Assembly (NCBI GenBank): GCA_021162785.1
Contig: JAGGYA010000024.1
Coordinates: 1 to 44,630, forward strand
Direction of reading: 5' to 3'
Source of the DNA: Candidatus Calescibacteriota bacterium
Lineage (GTDB): Bacteria; CAIJMQ01; JAADFP01
Length of the DNA: 44,630 nucleotides
This document shows, one piece after another, positions 19,406 to 29,871 of this stretch. A program made the translations under genes and the position numbers. The first letter of the stretch is position 1; each line of letters opens with the position of its first letter. The notes under the pieces are model-generated. The model saw only the letters and a list, made by a program, of their open reading frames with translations, was not told the origin of the DNA and ran no database searches.

Positions 19406-21601
19406 TTATACCTTAGAAATTTTCCATTTTTTTAAAATTACTTTTTCAAAAGCCTCCACCACACGAGGATCGAATTGGGTTCCCGAGTTTTTTATTATTT
19501 CTCTTGCTGCCTCCATAGGATTTTTTGCTTTACGGTAAGGACGATCGGAAGTCATAGCATCAAAAGCATCTGCTACTGCAATAATACGGGCAAACAAAGG
19601 GATCTCCTCTCCTTTCAATCCTTTTGGATAACCTTTACCATCCCATCTTTCATGATGGTACTGGATAGCGGGCATTATATCTTTTAGCTCTCTAATGGGT
19701 AAAATAATTTGTGCACCCACCATAGGATGTTTCTTGATAACTTCATATTCATCTTTTGAAAGGCTTCCTGCCTTCCTCAATATTTTCTCCTCAATCCCAA
19801 TTTTCCCAATGTCATGCAAAAGAGCAGCTAACCTCAACCTTTCCAGACTCTCCTCTGAAAGCCCCATGACTCTTGCAATTTCAAGAGCTAACCAAGTAAC
19901 TCTTTGAGAATGCCCTTCTGTATAAGGGTCCTTAGCATCAATAGCAGCAGTGAGGGCTTGGATTGACTCTAAGAATAATCTCCGTGTGTCCCGATAAAGT
20001 TGAAGATTTTTCAATGCCACACTTATTTGAGGAATAAGGGTGAGAAACAGTCTTCTTTCTTCGGGATTAAAAGGTCTTCGACTTTCTCTATAAAGGGATA
20101 AAGTCCCCACTAATTCAGGACCTATTTTCAAAGGAAAAATGAGATAATTCCACTTCTTTTCTCCAATTTTTGCCTCCCCCTCTTCCATCTCTTTTCTTCC
20201 TTTAAGAACTTCCTTAACTTTTTCACCATCAAACTTTATAATTTCTTTACTTTCCCTCCCACTGGGAACATAACGAGAAAGTATGGGAAGCCTTTTCCTT
20301 TCTATATTTCCTTCTCTTAAAATGCAGATTGCATCTTGAAAAGATTTTCCCAAAGTTTCTACAACTGAACGCATAAGTTCAAAACCACCCACTTCACGGG
20401 TTACTTGAGATACTTCTTCTACAGTTCTTAATTGTGTTTCTCGCCAGGTAAGGAGAAGATATATTTTTCGATAATTTAGGTAGTTAGCATACCAGAAAAC
20501 AAGGAAGACGGAAAAACTTATGGGTGTAAATGAAAAGACTAAGGAATGGTAAAGGAAAAAATGTAGATTCAAAAAGAAGAGGAAAAATAGAGAAGAAAAT
20601 AGAGCAAATAGTGAAGAATAGATCTTCCTAAGGGATAGAAAGATCAAAAAATTTACATATACACAGAAAATAGAGAAAAGAAAATAAAGGCAAAAAGGAA
20701 CTTCCTTAAGAAAATCCTTGTTGAGCAGGGAAATCAATGTATTGGTAAGCACTATAACTCCAAATTTCCTTCCTACGGGTGTGTTTAAAGTATCAGCATT
20801 AGGTAATCCTTCGGTTATTTGACCAATAATTACAACTCGATCTTTAAAGTAATGCTCAGGTACTTTCCCTTCTAAAACTTCATGAAAGGAGAAAATACTT
20901 AAAGGGAGGTTGGAATAGTAAGGAATGAGAAAATGGTTTTGGTAATCTAAAGGGATGGTTTCTTTATTTGTCAATTCAATACAACCTTTCCTAATCCTCG
21001 CTATTCTCTCCCCTTTAACATACAGGTATGCAGCAAGGGGTAGGTATGGAAAGAGAGATTTTCGGTCGCTTATAAAAAGTGGCTGTCTTCTCAAAACTCC
21101 ATCCTCATCAAGCACACAATTAATGTGTCCTACACCTATAGCATTTTTCTCAAGTAAAGATAGATTATGAGTAATTTTTCTCACAAAATATATTCCCATC
21201 CGATTGTTTTCTTTCTTTAATCCACCGGGGGCAAAAACAGGAAGCAGAATGTTACCACTTTCTTTGATTTTTTTAGAAAAGATTTCATCCTCTTGGCGAT
21301 CTTGAGAAGGGACTGGGTAAAAGATATCAAAAACTATAGTCTTTGCTCCATATGCTTGAAGCTGGTCAATTAATCGAGCATAAATACTCCTTGGCCAAGG
21401 AAACTTTCCTAATTTTTCAAGGGATTCCTGTGTTATTCCCACCAAAGTCACATCTTCTACAAAAGGTGCAGTTCTCCAACGGAAAGGAAGGTCATAGAGG
21501 AAATTATCCATCCTTTTAAGCAATCCATAGTGAGAAAGATAATAGGAGAGAAGGAAAATAAAGAAAGGAATGGTGAAAAGCATTATTTTTTTTGTTTTCA
21601 T
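19406..21601 (-). CDS. CHASE2 - GAF - HD-GYP signalling protein
   Basis: A 731-aa membrane sensor with an output domain expected to break down cyclic-di-GMP. An N-terminal TM helix (FTIPFFIFLLSYYLS) leads to a large extracytoplasmic CHASE2 domain (DVTLVGITQESLEKLGKFPWPR, GAKTIVFDIFYP, VVIIGQITEGLPNADTLNTPVG). Three TM helices follow (about 305-385), then a GAF-like domain (about 395-540). The HD-GYP domain has ALLHDIGKIGI, the HHERWDGKGYP motif at about 649-659, and ADAFDAMTSDRPYR. All catalytic residues look intact. It starts 5 nt after lepB, with no clear Shine-Dalgarno. The ligand is unknown. Confidence 0.9.
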   Translation of the reverse strand: MKTKKIMLFTIPFFIFLLSYYLSHYGLLKRMDNFLYDLPFRWRTAPFVEDVTLVGITQESLEKLGKFPWPRSIYARLIDQLQAYGAKTIVFDIFYPVPSQDRQEDEIFSKKIKESGNILLPVFAPGGLKKENNRMGIYFVRKITHNLSLLEKNAIGVGHINCVLDEDGVLRRQPLFISDRKSLFPYLPLAAYLYVKGERIARIRKGCIELTNKETIPLDYQNHFLIPYYSNLPLSIFSFHEVLEGKVPEHYFKDRVVIIGQITEGLPNADTLNTPVGRKFGVIVLTNTLISLLNKDFLKEVPFCLYFLFSIFCVYVNFLIFLSLRKIYSSLFALFSSLFFLFFLNLHFFLYHSLVFSFTPISFSVFLVFWYANYLNYRKIYLLLTWRETQLRTVEEVSQVTREVGGFELMRSVVETLGKSFQDAICILREGNIERKRLPILSRYVPSGRESKEIIKFDGEKVKEVLKGRKEMEEGEAKIGEKKWNYLIFPLKIGPELVGTLSLYRESRRPFNPEERRLFLTLIPQISVALKNLQLYRDTRRLFLESIQALTAAIDAKDPYTEGHSQRVTWLALEIARVMGLSEESLERLRLAALLHDIGKIGIEEKILRKAGSLSKDEYEVIKKHPMVGAQIILPIRELKDIMPAIQYHHERWDGKGYPKGLKGEEIPLFARIIAVADAFDAMTSDRPYRKAKNPMEAAREIIKNSGTQFDPRVVEAFEKVILKKWKISKV

Positions 21602-28166: not shown

Positions 28167-28715
28167 ATGCTAAGGAGGAAAAAATTGCTGGTTTATCCCT
28201 CTCCGCAGTGGAGAATTATAAGTTGGTGGGTAGTAATTCTTTCTCTTTTTACTGGCGTGGTTGTCTGGCTGATTTTTTATATAGTCTGGTCGTATGCCTT
28301 AGAATGGGGGATCATACTTACACCTAAGGAAAATTTGATGCTCCTCTTCCGCAGACTCACAGGGGGTGTGGTAGCAGCATTGATTGGTTCCCTCTTGGTA
28401 GGTGCTGGTGTAGGTGCATTAGTGGGTCTTTTCGTCACTCATAAAGTAGCCGGACCTCTTTACCGTCTGAAAGGGGCAATTAATGAAATAATCCAGGGGA
28501 GACAAATAGGTGAGATGAAAATAAGAAAAGGGGATGAATTGTGGGATCTTATTGAAGAATTCAATAAAATGGTGAAAAGTATACAGAAAAAAGATGAGAT
28601 ATTACTGATGATTAAAGAAAAAGTGTCTCAAGCCTTAGAAAAGAAAACTCTTAAGAAGGACCTTTTAAGAGAAATTCTAAAGATTTTAGAAGGAGGTGAG
28701 AGCTATGAAAAATAA
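28167..28715 (+). CDS. Two-TM membrane protein with HAMP domain
   Basis: About 182 aa. A basic N-terminus (LRRKKLLVYPSPQWRI) is followed by TM1 (WWVVILSLFTGVVVWLIFYIVW), a short outer loop, and TM2 (VAALIGSLLVGAGVGALVGLFV). A HAMP linker comes next (THKVAGPLYRLKGAINEIIQG...DELWDLIEEFNKMV), then a coiled C-terminus with no kinase or chemotaxis output. Starts at GTG 28164, ATG 28167 and TTG 28185 are all possible. AGGAGG lies 6 nt before the TTG, but the RRKK..P.Q pattern upstream looks conserved in relatives. It overlaps the pilin-FecR gene by 11 nt. Confidence 0.8.
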   Translation: MLRRKKLLVYPSPQWRIISWWVVILSLFTGVVVWLIFYIVWSYALEWGIILTPKENLMLLFRRLTGGVVAALIGSLLVGAGVGALVGLFVTHKVAGPLYRLKGAINEIIQGRQIGEMKIRKGDELWDLIEEFNKMVKSIQKKDEILLMIKEKVSQALEKKTLKKDLLREILKILEGGESYEK

Positions 28716-29871
28716 GAAAAGAGGGTTTACTCTTATAGAGGTAGCTATTGTTACAGCTACCATCATCTTTTTAATAGGAGTGGGTTTAGCTTCTTACAAA
28801 AGTCTTTTAGAGAAAACCAAAGCTATTACCTGCAAAACCAACCTGAGGGCTATTAACCTTGCCCTCAATATGTACCTCCATGACTACGGTATGTTCCCTC
28901 CTACTGGTTCCGACCTTATTACCGCACTCGCTCCTTACAATGTATCACCCCATATGTTCCACTGCCCAGAAGACCCTGTAAAAGGCCATCCTACTTACTT
29001 ATCTTTTTATGTGAAAAGGGGAATTAAACCCGATGAATTGGCTTATGTTATCGGTTGCCCTTACCATGCCCGAGAAACTCAAAGTGTTGTCCTCCTCTAT
29101 GGCTATGAACCTCAGGAAGTTAAAAATCTAAACATCACTCTCAACGGTAACCCTGTGGAAAAAGGGCAATCCCTTACCCTTCAAGCTGGAGATGTGATCC
29201 GTTACTTTAAAGAAGAGGGCACCCAGTTCGCTAAAATTACTGTCATAGGGAGTATTGACGATGCTTCCCCTCTTGCTGCTTTCTCCCTTCCTTCTGGCAA
29301 ACCCTATGGAATATTCAAGATAAATGATGTAGGAGAAGTAAATGTGGAGGTTCTTCCCGGCTCCAGATTTGAAGTGGTAACTCCCACCACTATCACTGGT
29401 GTCCAGGGAACTGAGTTTAGAGTGAAAGTCTCCTTCGAAAACAATTTATATATCACTTCCATATCTGTAGAGGAAGGAATTGTTACTGCTACACTCTTTC
29501 CTGATATATATGAAGCATCTTTAAATTCTCAACCTGTTAAGAGGGGCAAAAAGATGATACTCAAAGCAGGGGATAAGGCGATTATCAAAAAATTATATAA
29601 ACTTCTCATTCCTGCCTATCTGAGAATCTATCCAAATATTAAAAGACTTCATCCTGGAGAGAGTGTATGGTTTAAAGTAAAAGCTATGGATTCACAAGGA
29701 AATGAAATAAATATAGGGAATGAAAAAATTAAATGGATCCTGAAAGACTTATATCAACCCAATGGTAAACTTCTCAGTAATGGGAAGTATATTGCTACAT
29801 CCAAAGGAATTGACATTATAGTGGCAAAAGTAGGACCTAAGAAAGCATATGCTAAAGTAGTGGTTTGGTAA
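28705..29871 (+). CDS. Pseudopilin fused to FecR-like and Ig-like domains
   Basis: About 388 aa. I use the ATG at 28705, which has AAGGAGGTGAG before it. A type III (prepilin) leader MKNKKRG precedes FTLIEVAIV, with Glu at +5 of the mature protein. The pilin N-helix and the LRAINLALNMYLHDYGMFPPTG-type segment of T2SS/T4P minor pilins follow. A FecR-like beta domain (about 205-295) includes the TP..TGVQGTEFRV core and LKAGDKAIIKK. The end (about 305-388) looks like a bacterial Ig domain: LRIYPNIKRLHPGESVWF, then IKWILKDL and a terminal KVVV strand. It is probably displayed on the cell surface or on a pilus tip. Confidence 0.8.
   Translation: MKNKKRGFTLIEVAIVTATIIFLIGVGLASYKSLLEKTKAITCKTNLRAINLALNMYLHDYGMFPPTGSDLITALAPYNVSPHMFHCPEDPVKGHPTYLSFYVKRGIKPDELAYVIGCPYHARETQSVVLLYGYEPQEVKNLNITLNGNPVEKGQSLTLQAGDVIRYFKEEGTQFAKITVIGSIDDASPLAAFSLPSGKPYGIFKINDVGEVNVEVLPGSRFEVVTPTTITGVQGTEFRVKVSFENNLYITSISVEEGIVTATLFPDIYEASLNSQPVKRGKKMILKAGDKAIIKKLYKLLIPAYLRIYPNIKRLHPGESVWFKVKAMDSQGNEINIGNEKIKWILKDLYQPNGKLLSNGKYIATSKGIDIIVAKVGPKKAYAKVVVW

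Follow-up and report, generated by a model that had tools for sequence, protein, structure and literature searches.

A prepilin that carries a FecR domain is encoded, directly after a small HAMP membrane protein, in a genome of a Candidatus Calescibacteriota bacterium, and genes of the same type stand beside CHASE2 receptor genes in other lineages; the favoured reading, held with moderate confidence, is that the known FecR-CHASE2 signalling pair occurs here in a pilin-linked version, which would feed c-di-GMP turnover, with the HAMP protein as an accessory. The families of the parts and the FecR-CHASE2 pairing are already known, and the step taken here is the FecR domain carried on a pilin. 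The window, that is, the whole stretch of DNA analysed, is 44,630 nucleotides long (contig JAGGYA010000024.1), and its relevant features are as follows.

28167..28715, forward strand: mini-HAMP protein, 182 aa, ATG start; two TM helices, HAMP and C-terminal helices, no output domain.
28690..28699, forward strand: ribosome site AAGGAGGTGA of the pilin gene, recognised in the sequence within the end of the HAMP gene.
28705..29871, forward strand: prepilin-FecR-Ig protein, 388 aa, ATG start; assigned with Pfam, a GspG model, PDB, AlphaFold and Foldseek.
28705..28887, forward strand: prepilin leader and long pilin helix, residues 1-61 (N_methyl and GspG models; helix 10-61 in the AlphaFold model).
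29122..29598, forward strand: FecR domain, about residues 140-298, with the core GSRFEVVTPTTITGVQGTEF (Pfam PF04773 on residues 210-260; Foldseek; boundary estimated from the model strands).
29611..29868, forward strand: C-terminal domain, likely to be Ig/Big_2-like, at about residues 303-388 (matched to Big_2 and Rib by Foldseek; low model confidence).
19406..21601, reverse strand: CHASE2-GAF-HD-GYP receptor, 731 aa; predicted partner, of the same CHASE2 clade as the receptors beside pilin-FecR genes.

Regarding the 388-aa protein, the leader KRGFTLIE, with Glu+5, and the hydrophobic helix at its N-terminus identify it as a type IV/II prepilin; the GspG model matched residues 6-71 (1.9e-7), a geopilin chain was matched in the PDB (3.4e-6), and the Pfam N_methyl model (E = 4.6e-4) missed its curated cut-off narrowly. 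The Pfam FecR match is weak in the window protein (4.6e-4), reaches 4.3e-6 in its ortholog and is clear in a Nitrospirota relative (5.8e-9). With the AlphaFold model, built with relatives (mean pLDDT 78), Foldseek retrieved at probability 1.0 the FecR-family anti-sigma structures 4m0n and 4m0h and the PupR signalling domain 6ovk, and at about 1.0 the Big_2 (7r3t, 7quz) and Rib (6s5w) domains; in this model the FecR fold probably begins near residue 140, not 200. The Ig-like assignment of the C-terminal end, with a pLDDT of about 50-70, is likely; this end is kept in the window's family only and is missing in more distant relatives. The pilin leader and body, and the FecR-like and Ig-like domains after them, had been proposed in the sequence-only reading and were all recovered, the Ig end at low model confidence. 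Judging from the topology of pilins, the FecR domain would lie on the periplasmic side.

As for the upstream gene, it overlaps the pilin gene by 11 nt, and since the strong ribosome site of the latter lies inside its end, the two are probably translationally coupled. Its product has the N-terminal motif RRKKLLVYP..Q, and its TM2 is followed by a HAMP domain; the Pfam HAMP model did not match the window protein itself, and the domain was recognised by NCBIfam kinase models (1.4e-5), by Pfam HAMP in two relatives (best 2e-10), and by the PDB match of the family profile to the TM2-HAMP chain of HtrII (5.8e-4). No kinase or methyl-accepting domain was found in the 182-aa protein with the Pfam and NCBIfam models, which agrees with the initial description of a gene overlapping that of a 2-TM HAMP protein without such domains; its AlphaFold model (pLDDT 64) was of too low confidence to be used in a fold search.

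Related genomes keep the gene pair, both within the family and in distant lineages; its absence from relatives would have spoken against the sequence-only reading. In G002, a genome from another genus of the same family (locus in the public record JALUVB010000303.1), both genes are kept beside the same RimO neighbour and overlap by 17 nt, with an identity of 52% over the whole length of the pilin and 47% for the HAMP protein. In G001 the HAMP and pilin-FecR pair is absent and a CHASE2 receptor of the clade described below is present; because the adjoining RimO gene is missing from the assembly too, the absence is possibly due to an assembly gap, and a true loss was not concluded.

Outside the family, pilins fused to FecR were noticed in two distant genomes among the HAMP loci (L089 and L105). 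A scan of genome contigs with the window pilin alone gave no match; an alignment of four pilin-FecR proteins without the pilin leader, searched against 386 genomes and a named genome collection, succeeded, with 22 named loci matching over the full length. Nitrospirota, Omnitrophota and further lineages have HAMP and pilin-FecR pairs: the gene directly before pilin-FecR encodes a mini-HAMP protein in 5/22 loci (L189, L190, L205, L208, L211), a count that is biased because two of the four query proteins had been taken from HAMP loci. G130, G267 and G234 have the same arrangement. The HAMP proteins accompanying pilin-FecR do not form one clade in their tree, so that a single origin is not supported and their link to pilin-FecR may be looser or re-acquired; the L102 detector match, entered as a pilin in this tree, looks false by eye and is outside the neighbour count given later. 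In one Omnitrophota genome, the pilin-FecR gene does not lie in a single frame but is divided between two (L211:5866-6754).

The more frequent neighbour is a CHASE2 receptor. The loci were found with a pilin/FecR query that contained no CHASE2, yet 10 of the 22 (L190, L191, L193, L196, L197, L201, L205, L208, L209, L211) have a CHASE2 gene no more than 500 nt away; these 10 are spread over Nitrospirota, Omnitrophota, Armatimonadota, Lentisphaerota, Planctomycetota (Scalindua, Brocadiia) and one unplaced bacterium; G267, from a separate genome set, is one further case. The other 12 loci have no CHASE2 gene within 500 nt, some owing to a contig end. The order HAMP, pilin-FecR, CHASE2, with overlaps or short gaps, occurs in L190 (Nitrospirota), L205 and L211 (Omnitrophota), L208 (bacterium SKW262) and G267, while the Scalindua pilin-FecR loci that have CHASE2 have no HAMP gene. 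In G130, the gene directly after HAMP and pilin-FecR is one that in L205 and L211 comes after CHASE2 (in L205 with other genes between), and this gene order looks as if CHASE2 had been lost.

Among the 10 adjacent receptors, the output is HD-GYP in eight and a kinase in two. Pfam recognised CHASE2 and HD_5 in L190, L205, L208, L211, L191 and L196, as well as in G267 (L218), the window protein and that of the G002 family member; the HD-GYP motif of the L193 and L197 receptors, and the histidine-kinase-like sequence in which those of L201 and L209 end, were seen by eye. In the receptors whose HD-GYP residues were inspected, these are intact. The module CHASE2 proteins of Lentisphaerota and Brocadiia have a histidine kinase end instead of HD-GYP. 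As a separate observation, at L196:5854-9069 (Scalindua) the CHASE2-HD-GYP gene is followed by tandem pilins, of which the first is the pilin-FecR protein and the second has 604 aa.

The window receptor gene is 6.6 kb from the HAMP/pilin pair, being adjacent to it neither in the window nor in G002, and its predicted tie to the pilin comes from its lineage. Its HD-GYP motifs are intact (EGHSQRV, LLHDIGK, KKHP and YHHERWDGKGYP), and since the HD, HH and GYP motifs are all present, it is a predicted HD-GYP c-di-GMP phosphodiesterase. When its CHASE2 region alone was searched against the 386 genomes, the best match outside the family was a Nitrospirota CHASE2 beside HAMP and pilin-FecR (3.4e-46). 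In a maximum-likelihood tree of 41 CHASE2 domains, restricted to the CHASE2/TM part, a single clade (support 98/97) holds 10/10 sampled module receptors (nine named loci and G267, with the cut-off L197 left out), three family receptors including that of the window, and one from G234, which carries HAMP and pilin-FecR on a different contig; the window thus encodes a CHASE2 protein of the lineage paired with this type of FecR. Outside this clade are 27 other CHASE2 proteins, among them the second one of the window genome. The test was strict, because most of these had been chosen for being closest to the window CHASE2; as the tree has no fixed root, what it shows in the strict sense is a supported branch with the clade on one side. 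An HD-GYP output is unlikely to be the cause of the clade, because only the CHASE2/TM part was used and the CHASE2-HD-GYP proteins L225 and L227 fall outside.

A second set of these parts is present on contig C11 of the same genome (L217:4287-7285), where a signal-peptide protein without prepilin leader has a FecR domain (2.8e-8) and, at its C-terminus, a GspG head domain (T2SSG, 1.5e-17); directly after its gene come those of a CHASE2-Ser/Thr kinase and an FHA-GAF-ATPase. FecR, pilin fold and CHASE2 therefore occur together twice in the window genome, in different domain order, which supports a real functional tie between them.

With regard to the pilus machinery, the window's contig has no other pilin, and contig C18 of the same genome encodes PilB/GspE (T2SSE, 1.1e-140), PilC/GspF (T2SSF, 2.4e-65) and six pilins. 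Of the assembly proteins that the sequence-only reading had proposed to look for elsewhere in the genome, PilB and PilC are therefore present; a prepilin peptidase was not found in the window genome G000, whose content was searched in a 64%-complete assembly, and is present in both family members, G001 and G002. A GGDEF protein was likewise not found in this 64%-complete assembly, and diguanylate cyclases are present in 11/11 related or module genomes searched. The PilB of the window genome has an MshEN domain, in which the first arginine of the motif is absent (by eye), and in Scalindua the module is followed in the same gene cluster by MshEN-PilB ATPases and PilC. In MshE, the MshEN domain binds c-di-GMP (PMC4624772).

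From these observations, a sequence of events can be proposed. The pseudopilin or minor pilin would carry its FecR domain on the periplasmic side, and, while in the inner membrane or at the filament base, it would allow FecR to meet the periplasmic CHASE2 of the membrane receptor, whose cytoplasmic HD-GYP domain would then alter c-di-GMP breakdown. Since a pilin stays in the inner membrane until it is assembled and is there again once retracted, FecR would at those times be at the height of CHASE2 and would be removed on filament growth, so that building or retraction of the filament would move FecR to or from the receptor and the cell could read the state of the pilus. The co-translated 2-TM HAMP accessory may bind, within the membrane, either the pilin helix or the receptor and tune or relay the signal, and c-di-GMP binding by an MshEN-type motor, as the Scalindua cluster hints, would close the loop. 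A bolder form of the proposal, in which the pilin FecR is the natural CHASE2 ligand, filament assembly state is wired to c-di-GMP breakdown across phyla and mini-HAMP is a third membrane component, is plausible and put forward tentatively.

The role of the HAMP protein leaves room for other explanations, and the distribution of its family bears on them. Short HAMP relatives of the window protein have in common a basic motif at the N-terminus, with a conserved Gln as its last residue, and relatives were found in about half of the 386 sampled genomes, a count that includes long HAMP proteins. A pilin gene directly adjoins 15/90 of the best short mini-HAMP genes, against 5/511 background genes from the same loci (Fisher p = 4.7e-6; the related genomes are not independent), and long HAMP proteins with output domains were discarded as pilin partners (0/20 adjoin a pilin). 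The window's family has three different mini-HAMP genes, each beside a different pilin type, and the ordinary pilins beside mini-HAMP genes are GspG-like, DUF1559-type and PilV/W-like. Two arrangements are recorded here on their own account: a DUF1559-type pilin gene convergent with a mini-HAMP gene, kept in 3/3 family members (L037:6363-7420; L045:1197-2341; L051:497-1488), and, in L063, L070 and L084, pilins adjoining mini-HAMP genes that have another common C-terminal beta-domain ('NG..I...F....'), which is not FecR.

Other neighbours of mini-HAMP genes are multihaem cytochromes, peptidyl-prolyl isomerases and SLBB/ComEC genes, from which it follows that the family is not devoted to pilins alone. 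By eye, multihaem-cytochrome-like or, elsewhere, PpiC/SurA-like genes stand beside mini-HAMP in L077, L078, L079, L096, L099, L116 and L129, and in L053, L066 and L073; in three related genomes (L119, L122, L135), the mini-HAMP gene precedes an SLBB-domain gene and a ComEC (Competence) gene, as confirmed with Pfam in L122. Ordinary pilins, cytochromes, isomerases and ComEC are all exported or membrane-machine proteins, and this fits a mini-HAMP that would be an assembly or quality-control helper for bulky inner-membrane pilins, taking no part in signalling, with the FecR-CHASE2 link a separate matter; but HAMP domains are known as signal converters and most pilins have no such HAMP partner, so this explanation, although credible, is considered unlikely.

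Less probable still is the model put forward in the sequence-only reading, in which the HAMP protein itself would detect the assembly state of a pilus-tip adhesin or sensor; the change would then pass to some cytoplasmic partner. The translationally coupled pair in several lineages speaks for it, as does the enrichment of pilins beside mini-HAMP genes but not beside output-bearing HAMP proteins. HtrII, the closest solved relative, receives its input from a membrane partner. Signalling of this kind has been proposed for P. aeruginosa, where PilA would act through PilJ in Pil-Chp surface sensing (PMC9210963). However, the Scalindua loci keep CHASE2 without a HAMP gene, and the HAMP protein has no output domain, while a CHASE2-HD-GYP partner with an output is available; of the original idea, the sensor role is retained, the evidence speaks neither for nor against an adhesin role, and the HAMP protein is not supported as the reader, being probably an accessory relay. 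Finally, that FecR and Ig are merely structural or adhesive beta-domains, with the CHASE2 neighbourhood reflecting shared ancestry of FecR-CHASE2 operons without present function, is very improbable: FecR domains occur in Leptospira surface adhesins (model matches to Lsa33 and LipL45) and the Ig end is variable, but, apart from the pilin leader, no part of the protein is as well conserved as the FecR core, and members of the CHASE2 clade accompany pilin-FecR genes also where the two are non-adjacent, as in G234 and the window.

The pilin-linked FecR-CHASE2 pair suggests that pili may signal to the cell by a route so far undescribed. It provides a concrete ligand-receptor candidate for two questions, namely the input of CHASE2, whose sensing target is stated as unknown (PMC5192318, PMC10581220), and the way type IV pili feed c-di-GMP signalling, which is incompletely understood (PMC8846402); it also suggests a role that might be sought in the output-less HAMP proteins, a widespread and apparently undescribed family. 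Text searches of the open-licence literature found no paper joining FecR with prepilins, and none on the arrangement of pilin-FecR, HAMP and CHASE2.

Compared with known systems, the best PDB profile match to the HAMP protein is HtrII, in which HAMP likewise comes after two TM helices; beyond this part HtrII has a methyl-accepting kinase-control domain, whereas the mini-HAMP protein has none. The FecI-FecR-FecA system shares the FecR-type periplasmic fold, but its FecR has an N-terminal anti-sigma part, which is not present in the window protein, where the prepilin stem replaces it. PilA and PilJ are alike in that a pilin is proposed to signal via an inner-membrane HAMP-containing protein; PilJ, however, is a complete chemoreceptor that works through Chp and cAMP, while the HAMP protein of the window has no output and the candidate output is the HD-GYP receptor. 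The closest parallel is that of the FecR-CHASE2 pairs, described with a histidine kinase in the BiofilmReg operon of Burkholderia (PMC5192318) and as FecR-CHASE2-adenylate cyclase clusters in Campylobacterota (PMC9239204), in which a periplasm-side FecR protein is likewise encoded with a CHASE2 membrane receptor. In those pairs the FecR domain belongs to a LysM or an outer-membrane protein, and a kinase or an adenylate cyclase serves as output, whereas in the version described here FecR is carried on a prepilin, the output is usually HD-GYP, and a mini-HAMP gene is added.
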